Source: Streptantibioticus ferralitis (GTDB taxonomy: Bacteria; Actinomycetota; Actinomycetes; Streptomycetales; Streptomycetaceae). From it: DNA of 64,000 bases. Position numbers and translations under genes: made by a program. Of this stretch, positions 10,464 to 43,838 are shown piece by piece. The notes under the pieces were generated by a model, which had not been told where the DNA came from, searched no databases, and saw only the letters and a program-made list of their open reading frames with translations. The stretch spans positions 1-64,000 of the forward strand of contig NZ_JARHTQ010000019.1 in assembly GCF_029223525.1 (NCBI RefSeq). The letters are read 5' to 3'. Position 1 is the stretch's first letter; each line of letters starts with the position of its first letter.

Positions 10464-10838
10464 GCGCCACTACGGCTGAGCTCGTTCGGGGCCCGCGGTG
10501 CCGCAGCGGGGGGCAGTGATCGAGACGCAAGCACCGCCAATGCTTCCCCACTGCCTCCAGCCCCGTGTGGCTGGATGACGCCACATCACCCACCCGAGCG
10601 ACCCCGCGACGATCAACGAAAACGTCGAAAGTCGAGTGACGTACCGTGCGCCCGTATCTGGTCATTCACCGGTGGGGCTCGGCTTGGCCCAACTCAGCCG
10701 TGGGCGGGGGCAGTACAGCACCTGCGGATGCTGGACGTGTCCCCGTCGTGCCGATCGATCCCACGGGTCATCGTCAGGCCATCCCTGTATCAGGCGTCAG
10801 GCACCTGTCCGGGTGTGCCTCTCCCTAGGATGATCACC
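10464..10838. other. Gene-free stretch; left edge of the duplicated block
   Basis: There is no supported gene here. From about 10636 (TGACGTACCGTGCGCCCG) rightwards the sequence matches 33356 onwards, so the upstream region of the PBP-like gene belongs to the duplication. The conservation of about 200 bp before the start codon suggests the promoter was copied with the gene. Confidence 0.6.
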
Positions 10839-12230
10839 ATGTCCTCGACAAACCGGTGCTCGGCCGCGCTCGCAACTCTTCTTGTGCTGGTTTCCGCTTC
10901 CTTGTCGGGTTGTTCGTCCGGCACGGATGCCCAGCACCCGTCCCGCCACGCCGACGAGGCGAAGCCACCGAAGGAGGGGCTCGGCAACATCATCGTTGCT
11001 GGCCGCTCGGCCACGGGATCGAAGGCGTCCGGGATCTCGAAGATCCCGTATCAGCGCACGTACACCGACGGGGCCCTTTACGCCCCCATAACCGGGTACC
11101 GGTCGATGGCGTTCGGGACATCGGCACTGGACTCGATATACGACGACGTACTGGGCGCAGGCCCTTCCCACCCGGGCCGTGCACCCAGCGACGTGGTGAC
11201 GACCATCGACCCGGCTGTGCAGCGAGCAGCCGCCGACGGGCTGCGTGGCCGCAAGGGCGCCGCGATTGCCCTGGATGCGCAGACCGGGCAGATCCGGGCC
11301 ATGGCGAGCGCTCCGTCGTACGACCCTTCGGTGTTCAGCGGGCTCTCGTCGGCCGACAATGACGCGTGGGTGCGGCTGACCAGCGACAAGGACATGCCGG
11401 TGTTGGACCGGGCGCTGAGGGACTCGGTGGCGCCGGGGTAAACGTTCCAGGTCGTGGTGGCGGCAGCGGCCCTGAACAAGGGGCTGTACAAGTCGGTGGA
11501 TGACCCGACCCATAGCCCCGACCCGTACACGCCGCCCGGCAGCACGTCCTCGCTGGCGGGCGATTTCACCCATTGCCAGAACGCGTCCATTCGCTCGGCT
11601 TTGCGGTATTCCTGCGAGAACGTCTTCGCGAGCATGGCCGTGGACATGGGCCAGGTCGATCTCGCGACGATGGCCGAGGCGTTCGGTTTCAACGACGACA
11701 AGCTGCTCACGCCCATACGCCCTGTGGCGAGCATCCATCCGCGAGGGGAGCTCAGCGCGGCCGGTCTGGCCGACTCGGGCAACGGCCTCCAGGGCGTGAC
11801 CGCCACGCCCTTGCAGATGGCGAGAGTCATGGCCGTCATCGACAACGGAGGAAAGCAGACCCAGCCGGAGTTGGTCGCCCAGATCATTCGTCCTGACGGG
11901 AGCGTGGAGAAGCCCAAGAGCGATGCCGCGGCCGACAAGCAAGTCCTTGAGCCGAGCATCGCCGCCCAGTTGCGATCCGCTCTGCAGGGCTCAGCCTCGC
12001 CCTTGATAGGAGGCGAGAGCGGGTGGGCGCCGCGCTCGGAGCTGGCCAACCGCGGTGACGCCACAGCGTGGTCCGTTTCCTTCACCCGTTCGGGAGACGG
12101 AAGGCCCATGGCAATTGCCGTGTTCGTCACCGTCCCCACAACGTCGACTGACCACTCCAGCGACGAAGCCGGGGCTGTGCACGTCGCACAAGAGATGAGT
12201 CGGGCCGCCACCAACCCCACGCACTCCTAA
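10839..12230 (+). pseudogene. PbpA-like lipoprotein, copy 1, interrupted by a stop codon
   Basis: It matches the intact copy at 33553-34944 in frame over its full length, but has TAA at 11439-11441 where copy 2 has GAA. The stop falls at codon 201, the exact position of the catalytic Ser in true PbpA. The start has the same AGGA and ATG arrangement and a lipobox (LSGC at residue 25). Downstream of the stop the frame remains open to 12230, so this is a single nonsense change and probably recent. The SxN and KTG positions are also degenerate here (SCE, and no KTG). Confidence 0.85.
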
Positions 12231-12309
12231 CGACGTCGTTTGCCGGACAACGAAGGGGAGTCAGCCGCTGGCTGGCTCCCCTTCGCGTGCTCGGTCCATC
12301 CCCTCTTGG

Positions 12310-13662
12310 TCAGGAACGCACCAAGGCCAGGACTTCGTCGCGCAGGATGTCGACGGCGGCCTGGGTGGGGGCTTCGACGTTGAGCCTCAGCAGCGGTTCG
12401 GTGTTGGAGGGCCGGAGGTTGAACCAGCGGCCGTCGCCGAGGTTGACCGTCAGCCCGTCGAGCCGGTCGGTCATCACGCTGTCGAGCTGCCGGTATGCCG
12501 CCTCGACTTCGTCCAGTTTGGATGGGACGTCGGCGACTTCGGAGTTGATCTCGCCTGAGGCGGCGTAGCGCGAATAGTCGGCGACCAGTTCGGACAGTGG
12601 CCGGTCTTGTTCGCCGAGGGCGGCGAGGACGTGGAGGGCGGTGAGCATGCCGGTGTCGGCGCGCCAGAAGTCGCGGAAGTAGTAGTGGCCGGAATGCTCG
12701 CCGCCGAAGACGGCGTCGTGTTCGGCCATCAGGGCCTTCATGAACGAGTGGCCGACACGTGAGCGGATGGGGGTTCCGCCGTGCTCGCGGATGATTTCCA
12801 CCGCAGCCTGCGACGTGATCACGTTGTGGACGATCGCCGATCCGGGGTCCTTGGCCAGTTCCCGGGCGGCGACCAGGCCGACGATCGCGGACGGGGAGAC
12901 GGCTTGGCCGCGTTCGTCGATGAAGAAGCAGCGGTCGGCGTCTCCGTCGAACGCCAGGCCGATGTCGGCGCCGACCTCGCGGACTTTGGCTTGGAGGTCG
13001 AGGAGGTTCTTCGGCTCCAGCGGGTTGGCCTCGTGGTTGGGGAAGGTGCCGTCCAGCTCGAAGTACAGGGGCACCAGGTCGATCGGTAGGCCGTCGAAGA
13101 CGGCGGGGACGGTGTGTCCGGCCATGCCGTTGCCCGCGTCCGCCACCACCTTCAGCCGGCGGATGCCCGACAGGTTCACCAGCGAGTTGAGGTGGGTGGC
13201 GTAGTCGGCCAGCAGGTCTTGGCGGGTGACGGTGCCCGGCTCGGTGGCGGGGGCGGGGATCTCGCCCGCTTCGAGCCAGGTGCGGATCTGGCCGAGGCCG
13301 GTGTCCTCGCCGATGGGGGCGGCCCCGGCCCGGCACAGCTTGATGCCGTTGTCCTTGGCCGGGTTGTGGCTGGCGGTGACCATCACCCCGGGAAGTCCCA
13401 GCTTGCCGGAGGCGAAGTACAGGTAGTCGGTCGACCCGAGTCCTGCGTCGATGACCTCGGCTCCGGCCCGGTTGGCCCCGGCCGCGAAGGCTGCGGCCAG
13501 GTCGGGGGAGGTTGAGCGCATGTCGCGGGCGATGACGATCCGGTCCGCTTCGGTGAGCCGGATGAACAGGGCACCGGCCTTCTCGGCGATGTCGGTGTTC
13601 ATCTGCGCGGGGACTTCACCGCGGATGTCGTACGCCTTGACCAGTCGGGAGTAGTCGGGCAT
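12310..13662 (-). CDS. Phosphomannomutase/phosphoglucomutase
   Basis: A complete 450-residue alpha-D-phosphohexomutase, the usual length for the bacterial enzyme that interconverts hexose 1- and 6-phosphates. The four signatures are present: the phosphoserine loop TASHNP (Ser98), the Mg-binding loop DGDADR (239-244), the sugar-binding loop GGEHSGH (320-326), and the phosphate-binding loop RPSNTEP near the C-terminus. It was probably the last gene of a kinase, radical SAM and mutase operon, but the upstream genes in this copy are damaged. The related copy at 35025-35640 keeps only the C-terminal half. Confidence 0.9.
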   Translation of the reverse strand: MPDYSRLVKAYDIRGEVPAQMNTDIAEKAGALFIRLTEADRIVIARDMRSTSPDLAAAFAAGANRAGAEVIDAGLGSTDYLYFASGKLGLPGVMVTASHNPAKDNGIKLCRAGAAPIGEDTGLGQIRTWLEAGEIPAPATEPGTVTRQDLLADYATHLNSLVNLSGIRRLKVVADAGNGMAGHTVPAVFDGLPIDLVPLYFELDGTFPNHEANPLEPKNLLDLQAKVREVGADIGLAFDGDADRCFFIDERGQAVSPSAIVGLVAARELAKDPGSAIVHNVITSQAAVEIIREHGGTPIRSRVGHSFMKALMAEHDAVFGGEHSGHYYFRDFWRADTGMLTALHVLAALGEQDRPLSELVADYSRYAASGEINSEVADVPSKLDEVEAAYRQLDSVMTDRLDGLTVNLGDGRWFNLRPSNTEPLLRLNVEAPTQAAVDILRDEVLALVRS

Positions 13663-13763
13663 GGGCCTTTCCTTCCAGAGTCGAGGGCTTGCTTCGGGTG
13701 AGGTTACTGACGGTGGCCGCCCGCTCACGGATGATCGGGGATGGTCGGACGGCCACGTCCGGG

Positions 13764-14654
13764 TCATGTGAGGGTGGTGCTGGATGCGGGTTCGGCCAGG
13801 AGGCCTTGCGGCTCGCAGGCGGGCAGGGCGACCGCGTGGGTCCGCCACGGCCTGAAGGACGGCTGTCAGGGCGTCGTCGGGAACCAGGGCGAACAGGCAG
13901 CCGCCGTGGCCGGAGCCGGACAGCTTGGCGCCGAACGCCCCAGCCTTCTGCGCCCGTTCAGCGCAGGTGTCGATCAGTTCGGTCGAGCAGTGAACCTTGT
14001 CGCGCAGCAAGTCGTGTCCCGCGGTGATCAGTCGGCCAAGCCACCGGTAGTCCACCGTGGTCGCGGTCAAGGTCGCGTGCACCGCGTCGACCAACTCGCT
14101 TGCACGGCGCGCGTAGAGGAGCATGTCGGGCTCCCGGGCGGCGAATCGGGACCGTTTGGAGGCCAATACCGCCGTGGTGGTGCGGCGCTGCATGGTGTCG
14201 ATGACCACGAGGGGGACGCCCAGAGTCGGGGTAATCCGCTCGATGGTGGGAACCTGACCTGCGTTGACCCGGTTGACGCCGCCGTGGGCACAGGCGAGGA
14301 AGTCCATCCAGCCTGCCCCGCTGCCGAGTTCACCGGCCTCGGCCTGCCGGGCCAGGCCGCAGATCCGAGCAACCTCGACGGGATCGCCCACCAGGCGGCT
14401 GAGGGCGGCGCTGGAGGACAGTCCGGCGGCCACCGGTAGTTCGGTGGAGGCGGTCAGGACCAGCCCGGCGATCTGCTCAGCCTGCTTCAGGCTGACGCGG
14501 GCGGCGGCCTGCATGTGGTCGAGGACGTGGCCGTCGTAGTGCCGTCCGGCGGCTTTGGCCACGGAGACCAGACGCGTGCGGAACAGGGGTGTTCCCGACG
14601 TCAAAGCCAGTTCGGTGGAGCCGACGGCCCGCCAGGCGGTCACCCGGGTTCGTA
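13764..14654 (-). pseudogene. GHMP-family sugar kinase, 5'-truncated and frameshifted
   Basis: This encodes the C-terminal three quarters of a galactokinase-like GHMP kinase, with motif 2 PVAAGLSSSAAL and motif 3 KLSGSGHGGCLFALV. The N-terminal PGRLCLAGE motif, seen in copy 2, is missing. At 14654/14655 the kinase reading frame runs straight into sequence of the XRE regulator on the other strand, so a deletion has removed both 5' ends and everything between. Near 13845 a frameshift moves the original C-terminus (ending AEPASSTTLT) into another frame. It is non-functional. Confidence 0.8.
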
Positions 14655-15438
14655 CCGGATCGCGCTCGCCCAGGCCCTGGGATCCGGCGGGCACACCGAG
14701 CAGGCGGCCAGAGCGGCTGCCGAGCTGTACAACACCGCAACCAGGTTCTGCATCAAGCTCGGCGAGGACGGCCTGGCAGCCGTCACCGCCGACCGGGCGC
14801 TGACCGCCGCGTTCAACGGAGCGGACGCGCTGACCGTGGCGGAGGCGCACCGCATGGTCTCCTCCGCCTGGCGCCGCCAGGGCCACTACGCCCGCGCGAC
14901 CGACGTCGCCGTCACCGCAGCCCAACACCTGGCTACCGACCGCACCTCGAACGAGACCGAGCGCCTGTCGGTGCAGGGGAACTTGTATGCCACGGCCGCC
15001 TACACCGCGGCCAAGCAAGGCGACCGGCACACCGCGCACCAGCTGATCGCCGAGGCACACGCCACTGCCGCGCGCCTGGGCCATGACGAGCTGCGGCGCG
15101 GCACCATCTTCGGGCCCAGCCAGGTCCTGTTGCACCAGATCTCGATCAGTCACCTGCTCGGCGACGCCGGTCAAGCCATCGAGCACGCCCGCCACGTCAA
15201 CGTCGCCGCCTTGCCCACCACCGAACGGCAAGCCCGTTACTGGATCGACGTCGCCCGCGCCTTCGACCAATGGGGCAAGCCAGAGCGCTGCTACCGCGCT
15301 CTGCTGGCGGCCGAACACGCAGCCCCACAGGAGGTCCGCCGCGGCTCAGTGCGCTCCATGACCGCCACCTTGATGCGGCACGACCACACCTTGCCGGGAA
15401 TGCGCGCCTTCGCCGCCCGCGTCGGTGCCCTCACCTAG
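14655..15438 (+). pseudogene. XRE/helical-repeat regulator, 5'-truncated
   Basis: This matches the last 261 or so residues of the intact regulator at 37879-39264, from RIALAQALG to the C-terminal RVGALT. The N-terminal XRE DNA-binding domain has been lost in the deletion that fused it to the kinase gene. The remaining part is the helical repeat region that usually senses a ligand or partner. No promoter or start codon of its own is evident. It is followed by a perfect palindrome that could end transcription. Confidence 0.8.
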
Positions 15439-15440
15439 TT

Positions 15441-15470
15441 TTGTCCCTCCGATCATGATCGGAGGGACAA
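15441..15470. terminator. Perfect palindrome between convergent genes
   Basis: A perfect 30-bp palindrome with 15-bp arms, starting TTGTCCCTCCGATCA. It lies 2 bp after the regulator remnant's stop codon and before the end of a convergent secreted-protein gene, so it may terminate both. It is absent from copy 2, so it came with the copy-1-specific segment. Confidence 0.6.
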
Positions 15471-15536
15471 ATGAGGAGTGCTGTGGCGGTGACGGTGCCA
15501 CAGCTGTGTACCCGCCGGTGCAGTGGCGGGCTGGTG

Positions 15537-16070
15537 CTACGGCAGGATCTCCAACTGAACGGCGCTGTGGGTGCCCTGGAGGCCGGAAGTGAGGCAGTCC
15601 GTGGGCAGTTGCTGGGGTAGCGAGGTCACGGTCCGGCGTACGAAGTGGCCTTCGCCATGCCCCTCGTTGACCCGGCCCGATTGCAGGACGACCAGGACGC
15701 CCGCGACGCGGGCGGTGGTGGCACCGTCGATGACGATCACCGACCGGCCGCCGTCCGCGTAGCGGACGGTTTCCGTGCCGCTCGCGCTGGACAGCGAGAC
15801 GCAGGACGCCGACGCCGCGACGGCGTCGAAGGAGCCTGTCGCCGGAACAGTGCGGCCTGGGGCGGTAGTGCAGGTATAGCGCACGTCCGCGTGGTTGCGG
15901 GTCTCCCGGGGCGTGAGGGTGAGCGGCGGGTCATAGCTGCTGTGCGCGTTGCCCGTGCAGGTGACGGCCTCGTATCGGCCCGTCCCGGCTTGGCCGGTCG
16001 GCGCCCAGACCAGCGACGAGGCCACCAGCGCCAGGGATCCCAGCGTCACCGTCGTACCGCGCCTGCTCAC
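15537..16070 (-). CDS. Secreted protein of unknown function
   Basis: About 177 residues with an N-terminal signal peptide (VSRRGTTVTLGSLALVASSL, cleavage near AGTG). The mature chain has several Cys that could form disulfides (VTCTG, YTCTT, ASCVS, TDCLT). The GTG at 16070 is chosen because GGAGGGG lies about 6 bp upstream; the GTG at 16073 is equally in frame. It occurs only in copy 1 of the duplication, in a segment that also carries the EF-hand gene. The family is not recognised; an envelope or extracellular location is inferred. Confidence 0.6.
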   Translation of the reverse strand: MSRRGTTVTLGSLALVASSLVWAPTGQAGTGRYEAVTCTGNAHSSYDPPLTLTPRETRNHADVRYTCTTAPGRTVPATGSFDAVAASASCVSLSSASGTETVRYADGGRSVIVIDGATTARVAGVLVVLQSGRVNEGHGEGHFVRRTVTSLPQQLPTDCLTSGLQGTHSAVQLEILP

Positions 16071-16298
16071 CACATGCCCCTCCAACAAGTCGTCTGCCTT
16101 TACGAGCACTTGACTACCCCGGCGTCGCATCGGCTGATCCGGCGCCTCGAAGTGCACCACCGGCGCACGCCCGCCCATCGCGCCGTCGCGCACGCCTGTC
16201 CTCCCGGCAGGACGCTTGGCATCCGGAACGTGCCGGGTAGGAAGCGCCGGACGAGTCCTCGTCGAATCGGAGCATGAACCGAGCAGGAGGAGATCCGA

Positions 16299-16814
16299 GT
16301 GAGCCGTATGACCGACGCAGCCGCCACCGCCGCGAGAGTGCGCGTGTTCGCCATGATGGACGCCGACGGGGACCAGGTCATCACGCGGCACGACTATCTC
16401 TCCCGCATCGACCGGACCGTCCTTGCCACCGGGCGCGCAGAGGACGACCCGCTCGTCGTCGCCGCCCGCACGGAAGGCTTCAAGGCCTGGGGTGCGATGG
16501 ACGCCAACAACGACGGGGTGCTGACCTTCGACGAGTACAACGCGTGGGTGGGCGCCGACAAGTTCGACAACGTCTGCCGGTTCGCGCTCGGCGCGCTCTT
16601 CGACCTCGCCGACGCCGACGGGGACGGCACCTTGGACAAAGCCGAGTTCACCACGCTGCGCACCGCACTGAACAACCCGCCAGGGAACGCCGCCGCCGCG
16701 TTCGACGCGCTGGATGCCGACGCCGACGGCCGGGTCGGCCGCGACGCGTACCTGGCGTCGATCCGCGCCTACATCGTCGGCGACAGCTCCCCGATGGGCG
16801 AGGTCCTGTACTAG
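16299..16814 (+). CDS. Calmodulin-like EF-hand calcium-binding protein
   Basis: A 171-residue soluble protein with four EF-hand loops. They are DADGDQVITRHD near residue 21, DANNDGVLTFDE near 68, DADGDGTLDKAE near 106, and DADADGRVGRDA near 139. The first three have good calcium ligands at positions 1, 3, 5 and 12; the fourth ends in Ala instead of Glu and may bind weakly. Similar four-EF-hand proteins act as calcium sensors or buffers in Streptomyces. An AGGAGGAGAT ribosome-binding site precedes GTG 16299. It is present only in copy 1. Confidence 0.85.
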   Translation: MSRMTDAAATAARVRVFAMMDADGDQVITRHDYLSRIDRTVLATGRAEDDPLVVAARTEGFKAWGAMDANNDGVLTFDEYNAWVGADKFDNVCRFALGALFDLADADGDGTLDKAEFTTLRTALNNPPGNAAAAFDALDADADGRVGRDAYLASIRAYIVGDSSPMGEVLY

Positions 16815-16857
16815 CCAGGCCGTGCCTCTTCAAGCGTGTGGCCCGTTGTTCGCACCA

Positions 16858-17120
16858 TGTTGAGCAGGGCGGAACTGGCAGACGACGAGTGGGCGGCGCT
16901 GAAGCGTTGCTGCCGGTGAGCAACAACCGGTGTAGCCGGTGGCGGGACCACGGGCAGGTGATCAGCGGGATCATCCACCGGATCAGTACCGGTTGCCAGT
17001 GGCGGGAGCTGCCCCGGCGCTTCGGGCCATGGAAGACGGTGCACAAGCGGCACCTGCTGTGGTCGGCTGACGGTACCTGGGAGAAGCTGCTCCAGCACGT
17101 CCAGGCCGTCGCATCGGATG
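16858..17120 (+). pseudogene. IS5-type transposase N-terminal remnant
   Basis: The start (MLSRAELADDEWAALKR) and the following segment (ISGIIHRISTGCQWRELPRR, then HKRHLLWSADGTWEKLLQHV) are typical of the N-terminal domain of IS5-group transposases. The two parts lie in different frames with a shift near 16905, and the catalytic DDE region is missing. This is therefore a dead fragment. It lies just after the EF-hand gene inside the copy-1-specific segment. Confidence 0.75.
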
Positions 17121-17259
17121 CGAAGTGCTTGCCTACGCCCCGCTCTGGGCAGCCGCCAGCGGCTGCCAGATCGTCCGCGTCGTTTGCCCGCCGCACGACG
17201 ACGCGGACGCTCTCCGCGGCCTACGGCGCTGGCTGGCAGGGAGAAGAAGTCCTTCCCCC

Positions 17260-17391
17260 TCGCTGTAGACGGTGCTCGATACCGGTACGGCTGACGAAGT
17301 AGTCCGGCTCCAGGCCATGCGAGATTGCCAGGTCCGCGTTGCTGATGATGCGCGAGCCGAGCGCGTAGGCCAGACCTGAGATCCCGATCAT
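17260..17391 (-). pseudogene. N-terminal fragment of a ketosynthase III (FabH-like) gene
   Basis: From ATG 17391 the frame reads MIGISGLAYALGSRIISNAD and continues to VSRTGIEHRLQR. This resembles the start of 3-oxoacyl-ACP synthase III proteins, which have a GxG(x)xLP-like opening, xSNxDL and RTGI(x)xR. A GGAGG ribosome-binding site lies about 8 bp upstream. After about 44 codons the similarity stops, so the catalytic Cys-His-Asn parts are gone. A short coding-like stretch on the opposite strand (about 17118-17268, ending GLRRWLAGR) is another unidentified fragment. Confidence 0.5.
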
Positions 17392-17680
17392 TGCGTGAAC
17401 CGCCTCCTTCGCTCTGACGCGCGCGGGTGTTGGGGCTCTGCGATCGCCCAGAACGCGTCGCTGCTACCACCGTAGGATCGATGCCAACAGGTGCGGAGCG
17501 GCCCGGCACGCCGACGTTGCCCTATCCCACGCGGTGCCGTAACTCAGGTGCCTTGTGCGCAGGCAGCGCCTGTGCCTGATGGCGTGGGCCCTCCCTCCCT
17601 ATGTGTATCCTGCCGTGCCGACGATGGTGTTCTCAGTGTCTTCCCTACGTTGTGACCAGGAAGGTTTGGGTGGCCTGTAT

Positions 17681-17702
17681 GCGGGATGGGATCCCATCCC
17701 GC
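17681..17702. promoter_or_regulatory. Perfect 22-bp palindrome upstream of the winged-helix gene, copy 1
   Basis: The palindrome is centred on GGATCC within the strongly conserved non-coding block 17518-17790, which matches 39292-39566 in copy 2. It lies about 95 bp before the start of the winged-helix protein gene, and a GGTTTC-GG-GAAACC hairpin follows directly. It may be an operator for that protein or an element of a 5' leader. Copy 2 keeps the central 14 bp perfectly. Confidence 0.4.
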
Positions 17703-17794
17703 TGGTTTCGGGAAACCCCCTCGTTCACTCGCCTAGGTGACGGTGTAGCCCATGATTAGGAAGATCCGCATCGGCGCCATTAGGGTCACGCACT

Positions 17795-18412: not shown

Positions 18413-18425
18413 GCCCACAAAAGCA

Positions 18426-35640: not shown

Positions 35641-36016
35641 TGAGAGCGGCGCTGGAGGACAGTCCGGCGGCCACCGGTAGTTCGGTGGAGGCGGTCAGCA
35701 CCAGCCCGGCGATCTGTTCGGCCTGCTTCAGGCTGACGCGGGCAGCGGCCTGCATGTGGTCCAAGACGTGCCCGTCGTAATGCCGTCCGGCGGCTTTGGC
35801 GACCGAGACCAGACGCGTGCGGAACAAGGGCGTTCCCGAGGTCAGGGCTAGGGCAGTGGAGCCCACAGCCCGCCATGCGGTCACCCGGGTTCGTAGCGGC
35901 ACAGCGGCGACCACGGAGGAGCCGCCAGTCATCCAGTCCAACGACTCCCCGGCCAAGCACAGGCGGCCGGGAACCGAGACGGTCACCGCCCGCCCGGCGA
36001 TGTCAGTGGTGGTCAT
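35641..36016 (-). pseudogene. GHMP-family sugar kinase, N-terminal part only
   Basis: The gene begins MTTTDIAGRAVTVSVPGRLC, with GHMP motif 1 (PGRLCLAGESLDWMTGG), and continues to motif 2 PVAAGLSSSAAL. It then breaks at the deletion into out-of-frame mutase sequence, with a stop at 35588. The ATG overlaps the radical SAM stop codon (ATGA), showing that the two were translationally coupled. Galactokinase, mevalonate kinase and heptose kinase families share these motifs; the sugar is unknown. Together with the copy-1 fragment, it defines the whole ancestral protein. Confidence 0.8.
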
Positions 36017-36930: not shown

Positions 36931-37056
36931 AGCTGTCCTCCATCAGGTGGGCAGGTGAAAACGGGCGGAAAGGGACCAGGTGGGTGCTTGGGCCTGCCCG
37001 GCCGGGAGAAGGCCGCCCATCCCGACCGGGCAGGGTTCTTCGGGGGCGCCGGGGCG

Positions 37057-37428
37057 TCAGCCGGGCTGCGGGCCGGGGCCCGGCCCGGCGCCGAACAGCA
37101 CCGTGGCGAGCGGGACGGTGCCGGTGGGGTCGGACAACACCCGCACAGCCGCCTCCAGCCGAGCTGGATCGAGGCGGTAGTGCCTGACCGCCGCGTCCGC
37201 CAGGGCCTGGGCCAAGCGGTGTTGGAGGAAGGCTTCGTAGCGGTGCTTGGCGACCGCGGCCACGAGGGCTTCCGGCGAGGCGAAGGCGGTGCGGCGCATG
37301 GTCTGGTCCGGACCCGTGCCATAGGTCATCCACACCACGACCTCACGGGTGCCTTCGCGGTACTCCACCTGGAACGGCAACTGCCGCGGGGTCGTCTCCG
37401 GTAAGGGTTCCTGGGGGCGCTCACTCAT
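37057..37428 (-). CDS. Small conserved-looking protein of unknown function (123 aa)
   Basis: A 123-residue soluble protein starting MSERPQEPLPETTPRQLPFQ, with a beta-rich core (VEYREGTREVVVWMTYG) and helices (HRYEAFLQHRLAQALADAAV), and a Pro/Gly-rich end. Its ATG lies within the end of the preceding gene (8-bp overlap), so the two are coupled. It is part of the leftward operon that continues into radical SAM and kinase genes. I do not recognise the family. No Cys-rich or precursor-peptide features are seen. Confidence 0.6.
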   Translation of the reverse strand: MSERPQEPLPETTPRQLPFQVEYREGTREVVVWMTYGTGPDQTMRRTAFASPEALVAAVAKHRYEAFLQHRLAQALADAAVRHYRLDPARLEAAVRVLSDPTGTVPLATVLFGAGPGPGPQPG

Positions 37429-37678
37429 CGTCTGCAGCGCAGGCCTTCGCTCGCTTGCTGATGAGCTGCTCGAACTGGATGGCGTACAGCTCGACTTGAG
37501 CCGGGGTGAGCACGAGAACCGAGGATGTGGTGCGGCCGTCGGTGTGGTGCAGTTCGATGTCGAGGGCGGCCTGCTGCGCGCGGTGGTCGTAGGCCGCGTC
37601 CCGCTTGGCCGGGGTCGCGTGGGTGACCGAGGCGGCCTGTGTGTCGGGTGCGGAGGTGGCGTGGTCTGGCTCATGCAT
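37421..37678 (-). CDS. Small protein of unknown function (85 aa)
   Basis: An 85-residue protein from ATG 37678 (MHEPDHATSAPDTQAASVTH). A disordered N-terminal third is followed by a basic and then beta/alpha region (ALDIELHHTDGRTTSSVLVL, TPAQVELYAIQFEQLISK). It is the first gene of the leftward operon and divergent from the XRE regulator. It could be a binding partner or a peptide substrate for the radical SAM protein, but nothing in the sequence proves this. It is absent from copy 1 through deletion. Confidence 0.55.
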   Translation of the reverse strand: MHEPDHATSAPDTQAASVTHATPAKRDAAYDHRAQQAALDIELHHTDGRTTSSVLVLTPAQVELYAIQFEQLISKRAKACAADDE

Positions 37679-37797
37679 CGTTCTCACCCCTTGGTGACAG
37701 TGATGGCGGCCCGGCCGTCTGCCGGGCCGCCCACGGCCGACAGGACACCGCAACCGGCACCGGGCTGGGAGGGACGGCAGGCGAGCGCGTAACCGGT

Positions 37798-37823
37798 TTG
37801 CACACGGCGTAAATGGCGTGCAA
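37798..37823. promoter_or_regulatory. Inverted repeat in the divergent XRE/operon promoter region
   Basis: TTGCAC at 37798-37803 and GTGCAA at 37818-37823 form an inverted pair within the 200-bp gap between the small-protein operon and the XRE regulator. A nearby GTTG/CAAC-rich stretch continues to about 37860. This is a plausible binding site for the regulator. The arms are short, so the support is modest. Confidence 0.35.
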
Positions 37824-37878
37824 CGCCTCGCGTTGATGGGTGGTTTGGCGCAACAATGCGGCGCGGAGGTGACCCGCC

Positions 37879-39264
37879 GTGGACGGCACCCATCCGATCT
37901 GGCACTCAACCCCGATGCACGACGCCCTGGCGCGCCACGATGTGGGGGCGGTGGTCCGGTTGGCTCGCCGCGCGGCAGACGTCACCCTCGCCGACCTCGG
38001 CCAGGCCGTCGGCTACACCGCCGCCTCCCTGTCCCGCATGGAACGCGGCAAGCAGCCCATGCGGGACGTGGTGCTGCTCCAGCGGATCGCGGAAGTCCTG
38101 GAGATTCCGCCCCACTTGCTCGGGCTCGCGCCCCGACACGAGCAGCAGCCTCCCGCCGCAGCTGCACGGCCGCTGGGGGCCACTAGGGTGGTGCTGGAGC
38201 CGATGGGCGAGGAGGGTGAGGACCCGGTGCGACGCCGCAATCTGCTGGCCTCCGTGGCTGGGGCCGTCACCAGCGCGGTCTTCGGGCCCAGCCCGACCGG
38301 CTCCGCCCGCACCCTCGGGCCTCCCAGCCTGGCGGGGCTGGAAGACCTCCTGCTGTACCGGCGGCAACCCATCGTGCGCGGCCCGGACCCGACGCCCACC
38401 ACGGTCGGCGCGGCGGTGGAGGAAGCCCGGCGTGATTTCAGCGCCTGCCGCTACGAGACCCTCGCCCGCGCCCTCCCCGGCCGGATCGCGCTCGCCCAGG
38501 CCCTGGGCACCGACGGGCACACCGAGCGGGCGGCCACCGCGGTCGCCGAGCTGTACAACACCGCAACCAGGCTGTGCATCAAGCTCGGTGAAGACGGCCT
38601 GGCAGCCGTCACCGCCGACCGGGCGCTGACCGCCGCGTTCAACGGAGCGGACGCGCTGACCGTGGCGGAGGCCCACCGCATGGTCTCCTCCGCCTGGCGC
38701 CGCCAGGGCCACTACGCCCGCGCCACCGACGTCGCCGTCACCGCAGCCCAACACCTGGCCACCGACCGCACCTCGGACGAGACAGAACGCCTGTCGGTGC
38801 AGGGGAACTTGTACGCCACAGCCGCCTACACCGCCGCCAAGCAAGGCGACCGGCACACCGCGCACCAGCTGATCGCCGAGGCCCACGCCACCGCCGCACG
38901 CCTTGGCCATGACGAGTTGGCGCGTGGAAGCGTCTTTGGGCCCAGCCAGGTCCTGCTGCACCAGATCTCGATCAGTCACCTGCTCGGTGACGCGGGCCAA
39001 GCCATCGAACACGCCCGCCACGTCAACGTCGCCGCTTTGCCCACCACCGAACGCCAGGCCCGGTACTGGATCGACGTCGCCCGTGCTTTTGACCAATGGG
39101 GCAAGCCAGAGCGCTGCTACCGCGCCCTGCTGGCTGCCGAGCACGCCGCACCCCAGGAAGTGCGCCGCAGCTCGGTGCGGACCATGACCGCCAACCTGAT
39201 GCGGCACGACCACATCCTTCCCGGGGTGCGGTCGTTCGCCGCCCGTGTCGGCGCCCTCACCTAG
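37879..39264 (+). CDS. XRE-family regulator with helical-repeat sensor region
   Basis: A 461-residue regulator. The N-terminal XRE helix-turn-helix spans residues about 24-78 (VVRLARRAADVTLADLGQAV, then YTAASLSRMERGKQPMRDVV). A linker contains the twin-Arg-like PVRRRNLLASVAGA, common in Streptomyces regulators of this type. The remaining 270 residues are tetratricopeptide-like helices (ERAATAVAELYNTATRLCIK; MVSSAWRRQGHYARATDVAV). Such proteins resemble peptide-responsive regulators. GTG 37879 has GGAGG upstream. It diverges from the small-protein/radical SAM operon and probably controls it. Copy 1 retains only the sensor part. Confidence 0.85.
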   Translation: MDGTHPIWHSTPMHDALARHDVGAVVRLARRAADVTLADLGQAVGYTAASLSRMERGKQPMRDVVLLQRIAEVLEIPPHLLGLAPRHEQQPPAAAARPLGATRVVLEPMGEEGEDPVRRRNLLASVAGAVTSAVFGPSPTGSARTLGPPSLAGLEDLLLYRRQPIVRGPDPTPTTVGAAVEEARRDFSACRYETLARALPGRIALAQALGTDGHTERAATAVAELYNTATRLCIKLGEDGLAAVTADRALTAAFNGADALTVAEAHRMVSSAWRRQGHYARATDVAVTAAQHLATDRTSDETERLSVQGNLYATAAYTAAKQGDRHTAHQLIAEAHATAARLGHDELARGSVFGPSQVLLHQISISHLLGDAGQAIEHARHVNVAALPTTERQARYWIDVARAFDQWGKPERCYRALLAAEHAAPQEVRRSSVRTMTANLMRHDHILPGVRSFAARVGALT

Positions 39265-39455
39265 TACAGGGCTTCGCCCATCCGGGAGTTTCCCTATCCC
39301 ACCGGGTGCGGTAGCTCAGGTGCCCTGTGCGCAGGAAGCACCTGTGCCTGATGGCGTGCAGCCTTTCCCTCCCTGTGTCTGTCCTGCCGTGCCAAAGACG
39401 GTGTTCTCAGTGTCTTCCCTACGGTTGTGACCAGGAGGGTTTGGGTGGCGTGTAT

Positions 39456-39477
39456 GTGGGATGGGATCCCATCTCGC
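39456..39477. promoter_or_regulatory. Palindrome upstream of the winged-helix gene, copy 2
   Basis: This is the counterpart of the perfect palindrome at 17681-17702. Here the central GATGGGATCCCATC is exact and the outer bases are mismatched. It lies in the 275-bp non-coding block 39292-39566, conserved between copies, about 93 bp upstream of the winged-helix gene. No protein frame of quality is seen in the block. Confidence 0.4.
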
Positions 39478-39569
39478 TGGTTTCGGGAAACCCCCTCGTT
39501 CACTCGCCTAGGTGACGGTGTGGCCCATGATTAGGAAGATCCGCATCGGCGCCATTAGGGTCACGCACT

Positions 39570-40187
39570 GTGGCCTCGATGACTTCTTGGGCCGATGCCC
39601 TCCGTCGCCATACACCCGACCAACTCCGCATCGCACTACGGCAAGAGAAGGAGCAGGCCGAGGAAAAGGCGCGTGTGCTCGGCGAAATGCTCAGCACGCT
39701 GGACCTCATTGTCGGCAGCGACGAGCAGTGGCAGAACGTCAATCTCATGGGCCCTGCCTCCTCACCGACGCAGACCGCCGCCAGCCCACTTTTCAGTGAC
39801 GCGGCCGCCGGCCCGCAGGATGTGGCTGCTGGTGCGCAGGGGCTCGCCAACCGAGCTGACATGGCATTCGATGCCTTCAGCGACGCGGGCGCTGGCATCC
39901 CGCCGCAGCGGCCAGCGCCTGCCAAGGAGACATCCGACAAGGCCACACCGAAGACGCGTCGGGAATGGATCATCGCCTTGATGCTGGCTGCGCCGCAGCG
40001 CTGGTGGTCGGCCCTCGACCTGTGCGTCGAGATCGGTGTAGACGGTCACCGCAAACTGCGCGGCATCCTCAGCGACATGGTGCGCCAAGGCCAGCTCATC
40101 AAGCACAAGGAGCCCGGCCGTAAGCACGTCTTCTACCGACTGGCACCCGAATTCGCCCGGCAGCAGGAGGCACCCGTGAGCGGATAG
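39570..40187 (+). CDS. Coiled-coil/winged-helix protein, copy 2
   Basis: A 205-residue paralogue of the protein at 17795-18412, with the same layout: an N-terminal charged helix (ALRQEKEQAEEKARVLGEML), an Ala/Gly-rich middle with several substitutions, and a C-terminal winged-helix (ALDLCVEIGVDGHRKLRGIL). Both copies remain in frame although neighbouring genes have decayed, suggesting selection. The function is unknown; it may regulate the module or its own gene through the upstream palindrome. A hairpin terminator follows 12 bp after the stop. Confidence 0.6.
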   Translation: MASMTSWADALRRHTPDQLRIALRQEKEQAEEKARVLGEMLSTLDLIVGSDEQWQNVNLMGPASSPTQTAASPLFSDAAAGPQDVAAGAQGLANRADMAFDAFSDAGAGIPPQRPAPAKETSDKATPKTRREWIIALMLAAPQRWWSALDLCVEIGVDGHRKLRGILSDMVRQGQLIKHKEPGRKHVFYRLAPEFARQQEAPVSG

Positions 40188-40199
40188 CCCACAAAAGCA

Positions 40200-40230
40200 G
40201 GCACCTCCGGGATTGCCGCCCGGAGGTGCC
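40200..40230 (+). terminator. Intrinsic-type hairpin after the winged-helix gene, copy 2
   Basis: GGCACCTCCGGG pairs with CCCGGAGGTGCC over a 7-base loop, identical in its arms to the hairpin at 18426-18456. The conserved arms and the single loop difference support a functional stem. Confidence 0.75.
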
Positions 40231-40395
40231 CCTCAAACGAGGCCACCAGAAGGTGCCTCAAAAACGAGTTCACCGATCTGCACCTTGCGAGCTGCATTTC
40301 ACGGGTCACGTCGCGTTGCGAGCGTAGCACCAGGTTCATTCCGCGCACCGTGCCGTGTCACCCGAACGTGTGCCCTTTTCAAGGGCGTTGGGCGG

Positions 40396-40731
40396 TCATG
40401 GCGTTTGTTGCTGCTGTTCTTCCGCGTTGCGCGCGTGCTCGCGGCGCGGCCACAAGTCCACTTTCAACGCCGCTTCCAGGCGCGCGATGGCGCCGAAGTC
40501 CGGCAGCGTGCGCCCCTTCAGCGTGCGCTCGATCGTGCGGCGACTGACCCCACAGGTCCGCTCGATCGCGAACGGGTTCAACCCTCGCTCGCCGATGACG
40601 GCGCGCAGCTGGCGGGTGAACGCCTGCGCGTAGACCGCGCTGACCGGGGCGTCATCGCGCAGCCGCCCGTCCGGCCATTGCCCCTCGGCCAGGTAACTGG
40701 CGGGGGCGTCGTCTCCATGGCTGCGCGGCAC
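40396..40731 (-). CDS. XRE-type helix-turn-helix regulator of the recombination module, copy 2
   Basis: A 111-residue paralogue of 18595-18930. The helix-turn-helix (FAIERTCGVSRRTIERTLKG) and LPDFGAIARLEAALKVDLWP are kept. GTG 40731 is the start shared by both copies; a much longer upstream frame runs over the operator and the divergent gene and is not credible. It diverges from the recombinase-like/transposase pair and likely represses them. The Glu/Gln C-terminal tail is conserved. Confidence 0.7.
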   Translation of the reverse strand: MPRSHGDDAPASYLAEGQWPDGRLRDDAPVSAVYAQAFTRQLRAVIGERGLNPFAIERTCGVSRRTIERTLKGRTLPDFGAIARLEAALKVDLWPRREHARNAEEQQQQTP

Positions 40732-40812
40732 AACCCCACGGTAACCGCGGCAGGAGCACGCATCCCTTGCCTCGTCCGGGATTGTGACGCGAACAGCCTT
40801 CCGAACATCAAT

Positions 40813-40856
40813 CGAACATGGAAAAATAGTGGACCTATAAGACCACTCCGTGTTCG
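40813..40856. promoter_or_regulatory. Operator-like inverted repeat in the divergent promoter, copy 2
   Basis: CGAACATGGA at 40813-40822 pairs with TCCGTGTTCG at 40847-40856 with one mismatch. AGTGG and CCACT lie as inner inverted arms around CTATAAG. The layout is the same as at 19012-19054, where the arms are perfect. Confidence 0.6.
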
Positions 40857-40868
40857 GGGGAGACGCTC

Positions 40869-41840
40869 GTGCCGCGTCCGCTCGTCCTGGGGGGGGTGGT
40901 GGTGACCGACGTGCCCACCGCCATCGCCCTGTATGAACCCCGAAGGCTGCCCCTGGCCGCCTGGCTTCAGGTCGCATCCTTCGCCCGCGCCTCGGTAACC
41001 GCCTTCGAGCCCGCATCACCCTGGGCCGCCGTGCAGTACCTGTCCACCACCGCCCAGTTCAGCGTGTGGGCGCTTGCCGAGTATCTGCCCTTGCAGGCCG
41101 AGGAGTTGTTCACCCCCGACGTCGTCGAGCGCTTCACCGCGGTCGGCATGCCCACGCTGCAAGAGTCCTCGCGGCGCACACACCGCTCACGCCTGGCCAC
41201 GATGGGCAGGAAGATCACCCGGCGCGCGCCATGGCCGCCGCAGCAGGCCGCACTGCCCCGCAACCGCCTGGCCCCTCCCTACTCCGAGGAGGAAGTGGCC
41301 GCGTACTTCGAGGTCGCCGAGCAACAACCCACCGGCGCGCGGACCCGAGCCGCCTTCGGGCTGCTCGCCGGCGGGCTCGGCGCAGGGCTCATGCCGGGCG
41401 AGCACCTGATCATCACCGGCTCGTCCGTCACCCGCAATGTGGACGACGTCACCGTCCTCAACATCGCCGGTACCAGGGCGCGGCCTATCCCGATATTGGC
41501 TGCCTACGCGCCGTTGGTGCGCACCTTGGCCGCCCGCTTCCCCGACGAGCCGCTCATCGGCACGACCGGACGAAAGAGTAAGAACCGTCTCAACCAGTTG
41601 GTCAGCCGGATCGAAGTGCCCGCACGGCTTCCCGCCCTGACCGCACCCCGCCTGCGCACCACCTGGCTGGTGACCTTGATGACCGCGGGGATACCACTGC
41701 CGGAACTACTGGCCGTCGCCGGTTTGGCCAGCACCGGCACCCTGGTCGATCTTCTGCCGCACGTTCCCCGCCTCTCCGCACAGGACGCCGCCCAGCGGAT
41801 CGCCGATGCCCTCGCCCATGCGCCTGGGGCCGCCCGGTGA
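40869..41840 (+). CDS. Degenerate tyrosine-recombinase-like protein
   Basis: A 323-residue protein with a recombinase-like core. The segment FGLLAGGLGAGLMPGEHLII matches box I, but the catalytic Arg is Met175. The box II segment RLRTTWLVTLMTAGIPLPEL matches the HxxR helix with Arg263 kept and His replaced by Pro260. The GH position is Gly285-Leu286 and the nucleophilic Tyr is Leu296 (TLVDLLPHV). It therefore cannot cut DNA by the usual mechanism, but may bind it. GTGA overlap with the transposase gene indicates coupled translation, suggesting an accessory DNA-binding role in transposition. Confidence 0.75.
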   Translation: MPRPLVLGGVVVTDVPTAIALYEPRRLPLAAWLQVASFARASVTAFEPASPWAAVQYLSTTAQFSVWALAEYLPLQAEELFTPDVVERFTAVGMPTLQESSRRTHRSRLATMGRKITRRAPWPPQQAALPRNRLAPPYSEEEVAAYFEVAEQQPTGARTRAAFGLLAGGLGAGLMPGEHLIITGSSVTRNVDDVTVLNIAGTRARPIPILAAYAPLVRTLAARFPDEPLIGTTGRKSKNRLNQLVSRIEVPARLPALTAPRLRTTWLVTLMTAGIPLPELLAVAGLASTGTLVDLLPHVPRLSAQDAAQRIADALAHAPGAAR

Positions 41841-43573
41841 GCGACCCTGCCCGCTTGGTGCCCCTGCACCGCACAGGCCTGCGCAAGCTCACCCTCGAAC
41901 AAGCCGTCCGCCGCGCCCAGTTGCTGGTCGACCGCTCCGGCCTCCTGCCCGCGGTCCAAGCGCACCTTCATGCCGAGACCGGTGCGCCACGGGAATTCAC
42001 CGCCCGCGCCCTCCTCGTAGGGCTGGCCACACACGCACTACGCCTAGGCGAGATGCACCTGACGAAAGTGCTGTCCACCCTCGCCGACCTTTCCCCCTCC
42101 GCCCGTCACGACCTAGGACTGAGCGAGGAAGCCGCCACCTACCGGATGCTCTGGCACGCCTTCACCGGCCTCAACCGCGCCCTGGAAACCGGCTCCTTGG
42201 CGATCCCGCACAACCACCACTGGGTCAACCGCGCCACCGGTGAGCTGTTGCCCTGCCCGGCGCACTGCCCCCACCAGCCCATCACCACAGGAGAGTTCGT
42301 CGGCCGTCTCCTCGATGCCTCCGTGCCCGACAGCCTGCAACTCACCGGAGTACTGGCCATCGACTCCACGGACTTCGAAACCTGGGCCAGGCGCCGCTCG
42401 TGGAACCGTGCCCCCGACGTGGACCCCGACCACCTGCCCGTCCAAGACGACGAGACCCACGACGACAAGCGGCTCCCTAACGAGCCCACCTGGCCCCGAA
42501 TCGGCCACGACGGGCGTGCCCAGCACACCGTCGACTGGGACGCCCGCGAGGGCTACCGCTCAGGCACCAACGGAGGGCGCGGTCAGGTCTTTTGCGGCTT
42601 CGACCTCCACCTGGCCGTCAACGCCCGCACCACCACCGGCCCCGAAGTCCCCTTCGTCTTCACCGGCCTGCACCTGGCCCCGGCCGGATCCCACAAGGGC
42701 GAAGCCGGAATCGCCCTCATTGACCAGGTCCGCGCCCGCCGCCCCGACCAGCCGCCGATCACTGAGGTCCTAGCCGACCGCGGCTACTCCTACTGCACCC
42801 CCGCACGCTGGGCCCACCCCGTCCGCGCCCGAGGCATCGAAGCGACCATCGACCTGCACCCCAACCAGCGCGGACAGCACCCCGGCCCCATCCCCGGCAC
42901 CGTCATCATCGACGGCACCCTGTTCACCGACGCCCTACCCCCACCCCTGCGGCGCCTACCGGGCTTTCCCATCGGCATGGCCAAGGAGGACAAGGCTGCA
43001 CTCCACCAGCGTTACGACCAGCGCGCCGCCTACGCCTTCACCCCACACAGCCGCCCCGACATCGACGGCTACCAGCGCTTCAAAGGCCCCGCCGTCGCCA
43101 AACGCGTCCGCTGCCCGAACTACCCCCCATCCCTGCGCCTGCCTCACGACCGCCCGACCACCCGCTGCGCCCGCGGGATGCCCTGCGCGTGCGGCAAGAC
43201 GATCACCCTCGGCCCCCAGGACATGGCCTGGACCCGGCAGCGCACCGTGTGGGGCACCAGCGCATGGGCCGCCGACTACGGACGGCGCTCCGCCGTCGAA
43301 TCCGGCAACGCCGAGATCAAGACCCACCGACTCCACATCGACCGCGGATTCACCCGCGTCATGGGCACCCTCAAGAACACCCTCCTGCTGGCCTTCGCCA
43401 TCGCAGGCCTCAATGTGGTGCTGCTTCGTGACTGGCACGCCAAGCGCCAGCGCCCCGACCCCTGGGCCACCCTGACCGGCGAGCCTGAGCAGCCCCGTAA
43501 GACCCGGCGGACCGGGACCAAGCGCCGGACCACCACTCTCGCCACCCTGACCGCGGGCGAGCCCCCAGGCTGA
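41837..43573 (+). CDS. DDE transposase, intact
   Basis: A 578-residue transposase. Likely catalytic residues are Asp176 (GVLAIDSTDFE), Asp314 (VLADRGYSY) and Glu488 (SAVESGNAEIKTHR), in the order and spacing of DDE transposases of the IS4/IS1182-like type. Between Asp314 and Glu488 is a Cys-rich insert (CPNYPP, CARGMPCACGK), possibly a zinc site. The C-terminus is basic. It starts at GTG 41837, overlapping the recombinase-like gene. Copy 1 is frameshifted. I do not recognise the exact IS family. Confidence 0.8.
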   Translation: MSDPARLVPLHRTGLRKLTLEQAVRRAQLLVDRSGLLPAVQAHLHAETGAPREFTARALLVGLATHALRLGEMHLTKVLSTLADLSPSARHDLGLSEEAATYRMLWHAFTGLNRALETGSLAIPHNHHWVNRATGELLPCPAHCPHQPITTGEFVGRLLDASVPDSLQLTGVLAIDSTDFETWARRRSWNRAPDVDPDHLPVQDDETHDDKRLPNEPTWPRIGHDGRAQHTVDWDAREGYRSGTNGGRGQVFCGFDLHLAVNARTTTGPEVPFVFTGLHLAPAGSHKGEAGIALIDQVRARRPDQPPITEVLADRGYSYCTPARWAHPVRARGIEATIDLHPNQRGQHPGPIPGTVIIDGTLFTDALPPPLRRLPGFPIGMAKEDKAALHQRYDQRAAYAFTPHSRPDIDGYQRFKGPAVAKRVRCPNYPPSLRLPHDRPTTRCARGMPCACGKTITLGPQDMAWTRQRTVWGTSAWAADYGRRSAVESGNAEIKTHRLHIDRGFTRVMGTLKNTLLLAFAIAGLNVVLLRDWHAKRQRPDPWATLTGEPEQPRKTRRTGTKRRTTTLATLTAGEPPG

Positions 43574-43762
43574 CCTACCCCAGCCCCCGCGATCACCACC
43601 CGAGCACGCAGCGCGGCCCCGCCCTGCCCGGAATCAGGCCAGAGATCAAGAAAACGTCCCGCCACGGGCTGGGTCGAACGCCTACCGACAGGACAAACGT
43701 GCGAAAATCGTCACAACGGGCCGCCATGCGCCCCTCGCGGTACCCGCACCCAGACACAACGA

Positions 43763-43833
43763 AGAACCCCTGGTCCGGATCTCTCCGAACCAGGGGTTCT
43801 GTCAATCTGCCGTGGGTAGTTACGTGAACTACC
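43763..43833. repeat. Paired hairpins at the right end of copy 2, beside tRNA-Leu
   Basis: AGAACCCCTGGT at 43763-43774 pairs with ACCAGGGGTTCT at 43789-43800, and GGTAGTT-ACGTG-AACTACC lies at 43815-43833. The second is five bases beyond the tRNA 3' end (leftward), so it could terminate tRNA transcription. The same pair closes copy 1 at 21955-22026, where no tRNA follows. Confidence 0.6.
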
Positions 43834-43838
43834 TATTG

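Follow-up and report, generated by a model that had tools for sequence, protein, structure and literature searches.

The stretch of DNA investigated here, 64,000 nt of contig NZ_JARHTQ010000019.1 of Streptantibioticus ferralitis (in the following called the window), contains two blocks of shared genes to one side of a tRNA-Leu(CAG) gene (43838–43922, minus strand; detected by ARAGORN and as Rfam RF00005), the 3′ end of which faces them. Using self-BLAST we found that these blocks, copy 1 (10637–22032) and copy 2 (33356–43840), are a real repeat far above chance, with four collinear pieces of 89–91% identity: 10637–12925 with 33356–35640 (89.2%), 14400–14658 with 35641–35899 (90.7%), 14655–15439 with 38481–39265 (91.3%) and 17516–22032 with 39288–43840 (89.9%). 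This agrees with the original prediction for this DNA, which had noted two blocks sharing gene order and sequence. The right part of copy 2 holds four genes that we call P4 (39570–40187, plus strand; 205 aa, assigned to no Pfam family; also conserved in three further genomes of the Streptomycetaceae), P5 (40396–40728, minus strand; a small helix–turn–helix (HTH) protein, PF13560 with E 2e-6, conserved in relatives), P2 (40869–41840, plus strand; 323 aa, divergent from P5), predicted to have a tyrosine-recombinase fold and to be a putative target selector, and P3 (41837–43573, plus strand; 578 aa), a predicted DDE transposase that overlaps P2 by 4 nt. In copy 1, P4 (17795–18412, plus strand) is open, while P2 (19067–20036, plus strand) and P3 (20036–21765, plus strand) are frameshifted as the prediction had stated for its recombination genes: compared with copy 2, where both are open, one nucleotide has been inserted into P2 near 19842 and four have been deleted from P3 near 20403. 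Copy 2 ends at the 3′ end of the tRNA-Leu gene, and copy 1 ends in the same sequence. The blocks make up the right halves of two related transposons, element 1 and element 2, which were inserted successively at one tRNA-Leu(CAG) 3′ end.

Boundaries of the stacked elements

Read along the strand of the tRNA gene, the tRNA is followed by CACAAT, the right end of element 2 (with GGTAGTTCACGTAAC one base in), 21.8 kb of element and its left end; beyond the inverted GGTTGTTCACATAAC of this left end, CACAAT occurs again and is followed by the right end of element 1. On the forward strand the same order appears as the right terminal inverted repeat of element 1 (22011–22025, minus strand), a direct repeat ATTGTG (22027–22032), the left terminal inverted repeat of element 2 (22033–22047, plus strand), its right terminal inverted repeat (43819–43833, minus strand) and a second ATTGTG (43835–43840), the last three bases of which belong to the tRNA 3′ end. 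The junction of right end, 6-bp repeat and left end is precise at 22011–22047, and because the right end of copy 1 directly adjoins the inverted end motif that starts at 22033, element 2 can be defined as 22033–43834, a whole transposon of 21,802 bp with inverted ends, ATTGTG on both sides and an empty site in two congeners. The direct repeat in the window is at most 6 bp long, a length that we calibrated on the insertions of relatives. Inside the right end lies a long hairpin (43763–43800) that resembles a terminator and probably acts as one; by eye, similar hairpins are present in the right ends of relatives. For element 1 we can delimit the shared right half (10637–22026), whereas its left end may lie beyond the contig start.

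Separate arrivals and duplication

The original prediction offered an old duplication or two independent arrivals as the origin of the two blocks. Our data favor independent arrivals, on account of the clean junction, the unrelated left halves, the synonymous divergence (dS) and the empty congeners, and speak against duplication in place. To the left of both blocks the match stops, and 22048–33355 and 1–10636 share nothing beyond one 47-bp stretch; this stretch is 91% identical and lies at 9094–9139 and 25381–25427 in the otherwise unrelated left halves. In two congeners (G001 and G002) the right flank is found at 91–93% identity and the island is missing from both (2/2). There, a terminator-like hairpin and then another gene come after the tRNA, and neither P2 nor P3 has a match in either genome. 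We calculated a dS of 0.24–0.35 between copy 1 and copy 2 for the genes of the penicillin-binding protein (PBP), the mutase, the regulator, P4, P2 and most of P3, and of 0.13 for the last 270 codons of P3, compared to 0.15–0.24 between the window's genome and the congeners (six flanking genes), so that the copy-to-copy value is mostly the higher one. The ratio of nonsynonymous to synonymous divergence (dN/dS) between the copies is 0.10–0.32 in all six genes compared, which gives no support to the suggestion that only some parts are under selection. Because of these low ratios most of the divergence should predate the damage: judged from the sequences, the copies diverged while their genes were under selection, mostly before the congeners split, and were damaged later.

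An old tandem duplication in this genome, followed by different losses and by replacement of one left half, would explain why the copies are mutually closest apart from a remnant on contig C45, why they share their cargo order and why dS is low in the 3′ parts of P3. We nevertheless regard it as improbable, since the left halves share only the one 47-bp match, the junction between the elements is clean, both congeners are empty although copy-to-copy dS mostly exceeds congener dS, and a third fragment exists on C45. In the genomes searched it was not observed that each block is closer to blocks in different genera than to the other: P3 is about 95% identical in amino acids between the copies over residues 125–578 and 83–85% before, while blocks in other genera reach 57–71%. 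As the copies are closer to each other than to other genera, the case for separate arrival rests on the other evidence given above. In-place tandem duplication was rejected as the best account, the left halves being without a match, and two insertions of separately evolved relatives appear to fit these comparisons best.

The gene beyond the empty site of the congeners is found in the window's genome on contig C45, from about 2577 onwards. C45 starts with the end of a third P3 gene, which over 328 bp is 97% identical to copy 1 and 89% to copy 2 and is the nearest match of copy 1 that surpasses copy 2. Since the other flank thus lies on C45 beside a P3 remnant, the island measures at least 46 kb across the contig break and consists of two elements and the remains of a third. 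Bases 1–152 of the window also occur on two other contigs, and the assembly may be broken here for this reason. One could suspect an assembly artefact, i.e. a chimera of distinct loci, as the genome is a draft of 110 contigs and this contig starts in a repeated stretch; we give this hardly any credence, because the difference between the copies is about 10% over most of the alignment, the end-to-end junction is full and the right flank is syntenic with two congeners. Stacking is found at two tRNA genes of this genome, as contig C39 carries a 5.2-kb element at tRNA-Ala(CGC) beside an older right-end remnant. Besides P2 and P3, this element contains two open frames, one of which partially matches the APH family.

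The proteins P3 and P2

On the basis of its predicted structure P3 is a Tn5-fold DDE transposase with the YREK motif of the IS4 family. It matches PF01609 (DDE_Tnp_1) with E 1.1e-7, and its model (pLDDT 73) aligns with the Tn5 transposase (1mus_A) at Z 15.1 and a root-mean-square deviation (rmsd) of 5.4 over 310 residues, while the next families stay below 9. The motif Y-(2)-R-(3)-E-(6)-K is complete in 17/17 P3 proteins aligned (Y481, R484, E488 and K495). In the same alignment D314 and E488 are present in 17/17 and D176 in 16/17, the exception being the decayed frame of locus L106. In a second alignment with nine members, eight of them untruncated, Y, R and E are found in 8/8 and K in 6/8. 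Searches of PHROGs and NCBIfam with P2, P3 and P4 had no match at E ≤ 0.1.

P2 is barely seen by Pfam: the window protein matches Phage_integrase with E 0.012, and only 4 of 20 members have a match at E ≤ 1. Its model (pLDDT 85, pTM 0.54) yielded 40 matches in the PDB at E ≤ 0.001, with Cre as the best one (5.9e-6) and XerA and XerH among the others, and with Z up to 13. For the catalytic domain alone several alignments give an rmsd of 3–4 over 140–167 residues. A profile of 11 P2 proteins matched an archaeal Xer with E 2.7e-4, compared to 0.09 for a profile of 20 rows. Of four catalytic positions checked by sequence alignment, Arg-I, the His of HxxR and the His/Trp of the third motif were found in none of 28 distinct P2 proteins, while Arg-II was found in all 28; a Tyr near the expected position occurs in some members only. 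Fold prediction and alignment together indicate that P2 has the fold of a tyrosine recombinase but lacks most of its catalytic residues, i.e. is not an active recombinase.

This bears on the view that the island is an ordinary tRNA-integrating element (an actinomycete or other integrative and conjugative element, or a prophage) with a tyrosine integrase, in which P3 would be a passenger insertion sequence. The fold of P2 counts in its favor, and so does the location, since tyrosine integrases classically insert at tRNA 3′ ends. We consider it very improbable, since three catalytic positions are gone in 28/28 P2 proteins, the distance of P3 from the right end is similar among the loci seen, and a scan of 20 element-2 frames detected no Pfam family of replication, conjugation or active integrases (E ≤ 0.001). 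Moreover, self-BLAST of the window did not detect the tRNA 3′ end a second time, for which reason an integrase island with a long tRNA repeat was rejected, and the repeats are 6 bp long and differ with the target. Actinomycete integrative elements of the pSAM2 type integrate at tRNA 3′ ends and have an active tyrosine integrase, Rep and Tra and a long duplication of the tRNA end; none of the latter features was found in element 2.

At most loci, P2 and P3 overlap or abut by 1–4 nt (the start codons were picked by hand), and P2 stands beside an intact P3 in every clade sampled. P3 occurs without a P2 match only where P3 itself is partial or decayed (L105, L106, L107, L119 and L128). Between P5 and P2, upstream of 40869, a TGGTCTTATAAGACCA-like palindrome is conserved, which is probably an operator. 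A conserved RNA between P4 and P2 was considered and dismissed: the stretch codes for the divergent P5, and Rfam sees only the tRNA in 39000–44200.

Distribution of the family and its tRNA targets

We found matches to P2 in 26 and to P3 in 15 of 297 genomes of the host's family, the Streptomycetaceae. A wider scan of a contig collection was run with the P3 profile, the P2 profile being too weakly conserved, and yielded 13 loci, which belong to Streptomyces, Streptacidiphilus, Serinicoccus, Cellulomonas, Brevibacterium, Kocuria, Aeromicrobium and Tessaracoccus. The same module lies at tRNA-Leu(CAG) in two other genomes and directly after the chaperonin gene groEL in a third. Only P4–P5–P2–P3 and the right end recur in other genera and the remainder is cargo, so the 11-kb cassette proposed at first did not hold as a unit.

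Next to 35 of 44 non-redundant P3 ends a tRNA gene is located 63–277 bp beyond P3 with its 3′ end facing the element (27/35 in the first set and 8/9 in a set added as a check). The targets are tRNA-Leu-CAG, Leu-GAG, Ala-CGC, Ala-TGC, Lys-CTT and Lys-TTT. Assuming about 70 tRNA genes per genome, one would expect a tRNA gene so close by, with matching side and strand, by chance at about 0.1% of sites. The 44 ends comprise matches in the 297 genomes of one family and in the one collection scan, and they are not independent, as they include close relatives (L123 and L125 of Kocuria), an identical pair (L115 and L182) and a near-identical one (L101 and L181). From the first set L116–L118 were dropped as repeats of L060, L062 and L063, and L128 was not among the stretches scanned. 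The check set consisted of 12 stretches, i.e. seven P2-bearing genomes left out before and second copies, and gave nine new P3 ends; one end of L185 was dropped because it equals L113, and L178–L180 have no P3 end. Two plasmid records (L170 and L171) were kept outside the 44, with 0/2 at a tRNA. As to a phage origin, no relative of P3 appeared in one pattern-based scan of viral contigs or in tblastn of phage records, and this origin was rejected.

Ends and direct repeats in relatives

In the relatives, at most a few bases separate the right end from the tRNA, and by eye this end usually contains two spaced copies of the motif and a long hairpin; in the loci examined P3 lies just inside this end, which faces the target. 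Exact 6-bp direct repeats were observed at L182, L115 and L101. The most clear-cut case is genome G192, in which two copies of 5,514 bp are 100% identical but flanked by different 6-bp repeats: one is situated at tRNA-Ala(CGC) between ACCCAA repeats, next to bases that resemble the right end of an older element, and the other on a 306-kb contig between TTACCG repeats. These copies indicate recent movement, and their fixed boundaries confirm both ends. At L101 (10220–18563) an Ala-subtype element is inserted in the P3 gene of a Leu-CAG element with the repeat CGTCAC, and an alignment to intact P3 genes shows a gap of 6 bases there. The ends of the element after groEL match and are separated by about 24 kb; its repeat is no longer than 6 bp (CCGGAT), and its empty site is found in G131. 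The repeats vary with the target, as for a DDE transposase.

P2 as a putative target selector

Taken together, the best explanation of the locus as a whole is that of stacked, tRNA-homing transposons with P3 as transposase and P2 as target selector, to which we assign a probability of roughly 75%. The role of P2 is suggested indirectly, by analogy to TnsF, by the shared operon, by the lost catalysis and by the clustering of targets on the P2 tree. Here the kind of target requires 10 changes compared to a mean of 15.3 after shuffling, with 0 of 200 as low (27 rows), although this clustering is inflated by close relatives and, P2 and P3 being inherited together, the tree is silent on which of the two sets the target.

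P2 might instead be a repressor or an accessory end-binding protein, with P3 alone or a host factor picking the tRNA 3′ ends. MrpR, a tyrosine-recombinase fold turned repressor according to the available part of PMC10516654, has its structure among the matches of P2, and the palindromes at the element ends could be bound by such a fold. We think this unlikely, though worth keeping in mind, since in the subfamily of the window a divergently transcribed HTH gene of its own, P5, is present, P2 overlaps or abuts P3 and accompanies the intact P3 genes in every clade sampled, and the nearest functional parallel, TnsF, is described as a target selector (PMC10293859).

Several observations weigh against stacked tRNA-homing transposons with P2 as selector. 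First, 9 of the 44 P3 ends have no adjoining tRNA: those after groEL, inside the other element, in window copy 1, which abuts element 2, and at L182 on a side contig of G192, together with other or decayed places (L097, L105, L113 and L119); the second end of L105 is cut by the end of the fetched stretch and cannot be judged, but was counted among the nine. A tblastn search of plasmids gave four records with matches, two of which were opened, and both of these modules lie away from tRNA genes. The linear plasmid pSCL3 of Streptomyces clavuligerus (L170, near 10000) carries P4–P5–P2–P3 with the right end at a non-tRNA site, and a Rhodococcus opacus plasmid (L171, 3996–5815) carries P3 with two adjacent upstream P2 genes, where a heterodimeric partner is possible. 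On both records the P2 and P3 homologues are annotated as hypothetical proteins, and on pSCL3 the module proteins as hypothetical or transcriptional regulator. Second, P2 occurs without a P3 end in L178 and L180. Third, the structural support has gaps: Foldseek returned nothing for P3 at E ≤ 0.001 (the best match, at 1.6e-3, is to piggyBac), and the whole-chain template-modelling score of P2 (query-normalised) is only 0.31–0.40 among the matches listed, probably as the two domains are placed differently. Fourth, the left end of element 1 was not found in 1–10636 with up to two mismatches, the copy of G099 at tRNA-Ala(CGC) (L181, 99.8% identical to the copy inside P3) has no matching 6-bp repeat, and the repeat of the C39 element is ambiguous in length. 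Fifth, outside the C45 remnant the two window copies are each other's nearest relatives and closer still in the P3 3′ parts (dS 0.13), and some exchange between them is possible. Finally, the otherwise empty tRNA site of G001 (L129, near 10486–10566) has a hairpin nearly identical to the right end of the element, which is either a leftover solo end or the source of the element's terminator.

Losses, gains and passenger genes

Each copy has lost different parts. A stretch of 1,474 bp at the mutase/kinase junction of copy 1 (12926–14399) is missing from copy 2, and about 2.58 kb of copy 2 (35900–38480), comprising the 5′ part of the kinase gene, a whole radical-SAM gene and the 5′ part of the HTH regulator gene, are missing from copy 1. 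In turn, 2,076 bp in copy 1 (15440–17515) correspond to 22 bp in copy 2; this segment of element 1 contains an EF-hand gene (16299–16814), and a perfect 32-bp palindrome (15440–15471) forms its left edge. The loss of the mutase/kinase junction from copy 2, and from copy 1 that of the 5′ parts of kinase and regulator along with a 2.1-kb gain, had all been predicted correctly. The idea of opposite decay stands as far as the different losses are concerned, but the damage is lopsided, with copy 1 being worse affected and its PBP gene broken as well (10575–12230, plus strand; length differences of 1 and 4 nt and an in-frame stop).

In element 2 the gene of this PbpA-like PBP is open (33316–34944, plus strand; PF00905). 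Aligned to the chromosomal PbpA (48803–50260), the protein has Glu in the position of the catalytic Ser, and the lysines of both SxxK and KTG are missing. It would be a pseudo-enzyme by its sequence, has a dN/dS of 0.32 versus copy 1 and is encoded near the chromosomal rodA-pbpA-pknB genes. Element 1 has a phosphomannomutase gene and a GHMP kinase gene with its 5′ end cut (12310–14655, minus strand), while in element 2 an internal deletion has fused the 5′ part of the kinase gene to the 3′ part of the mutase gene (35025–35960, minus strand). A radical SAM/SPASM protein is encoded in element 2 only (36013–36930, minus strand), and the HTH/TPR-like regulator is complete there (37879–39264, plus strand), element 1 keeping 14656–15438. 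The left-half cargo of element 2 (22048–33355) includes genes for an IS21-like transposase, LysE, Lrp, an amino-acid permease, a methyltransferase, a cupin, MFS, TetR and ThyX proteins; the sole rve/Mu_C protein among the 20 element-2 frames scanned (22202–23512) reads as the IS21-like one. Defence cargo was rejected, since PADLOC on 10 proteins yielded HTH and methyltransferase hits only.

A search of related genomes for the undamaged cassette found the trio of radical SAM, kinase and mutase nearly full length on another contig of the same genome (C110) and in five other genomes (297 searched, E ≤ 1e-60), and the 18-kb stretches around it contain no P2, P3 or tRNA. As the trio is found elsewhere without them, it would be ordinary chromosomal material taken up as cargo, and the sequences mark the PBP, mutase, kinase and radical-SAM genes as passengers. 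The element at groEL carries transporters, a metallo-beta-lactamase/rhodanese, an aminotransferase, a glycosyltransferase, an EPSP-synthase-like protein and others.

Proposed mechanism and relation to known systems

In the mechanism that we propose, P2 attaches to the target, in most cases a tRNA 3′ end, and brings the P3 transpososome there, where P3 would cut and paste the element between its short inverted ends. The dead tyrosine recombinase may have kept a DNA-binding clamp suited to dyad sites. The hairpin inside the right end would restore transcription termination for the tRNA, and P5 would repress the operon. With the tRNA 3′ end whole after insertion, the site would stay open, so that later elements stack and older ones are pushed outward, where they decay. 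Copy 1 would then be worse damaged because it is the older element, pushed away from the tRNA and decaying.

TnsF, an inactivated tyrosine-recombinase fold in Tn6022-like Tn7 elements, selects comM as the one fixed site on the chromosome, and target-site duplications are made (PMC10293859; this and the other sources cited were available in part). P2 resembles it by description, both being dead tyrosine-recombinase folds in a DDE transposon. Tn6022, however, uses TnsA/B/C and TniQ, whereas here a single Tn5-fold transposase is present and tRNA genes are the main target; no Tn7 protein, and in particular no TnsB, TnsC or TniQ, was among the Pfam matches of the 20 element-2 frames scanned. TnsF also differs in having N-terminal zinc fingers and a partial catalytic domain, while P2 matches recombinases over both domains and shows no zinc finger by Pfam. 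In the Tsy elements a TnsF relative picks the site as well, but they need active tyrosine recombinases, and the available part of PMC10293859 names no DDE transposase among their genes. MrpR/YopR of phage SPbeta likewise combines a DNA-binding tyrosine-recombinase fold with lost catalysis, but it is a prophage repressor and not a transposon protein (PMC10516654).

With the IS4/Tn5 group the elements share DDE residues, a complete YREK motif and the Tn5 fold, and cut-and-paste transposition is expected (PMC2266710). Direct repeats in the IS4 family measure about 10 bp, and the YREK subgroups make duplications of 7–13 bp, compared to 6 bp here, and the partner protein, the size of 5–24 kb and the tRNA homing set the present elements apart from what PMC2266710 describes in the part available. 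IS1634 is similar in its large transposases and duplications of 5–6 bp, but YREK is marked absent there or is incomplete, usually with loss of the Arg, while it is complete in all 17 aligned P3 proteins (PMC2266710). The combination of IS4-like catalysis and a 6-bp duplication fits no row of Table 1 as available in PMC2266710. The literature searched, outside of which lie most subscription papers and all bioRxiv preprints, yielded no description of elements at tRNA genes that combine a DDE transposase with a tyrosine-recombinase-like protein. We lean slightly towards the view that the elements form an undescribed actinobacterial transposon family with two-protein tRNA homing, in which a dead tyrosine recombinase would have been recruited for targeting a second time and independently.

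If this is true, such targeting would need no AAA+ ATPase, no TniQ and no guide RNA, and the elements would carry large passenger loads, stack repeatedly at one site and have large plasmids as an alternative location. The best-known examples of site-specific cut-and-paste transposition guided by a dedicated protein selector are the relatives of Tn7, which need several proteins. If P2 is the selector, two proteins would do the same job with a Tn5-type enzyme, which is among the best understood DDE transposases, and both the recruitment of the transposase by the selector and a shift of target when P2 is swapped between tRNA genes would be directly testable. The finding may also offer a mechanism for those tRNA-associated islands of actinobacteria in which an active integrase is not found.

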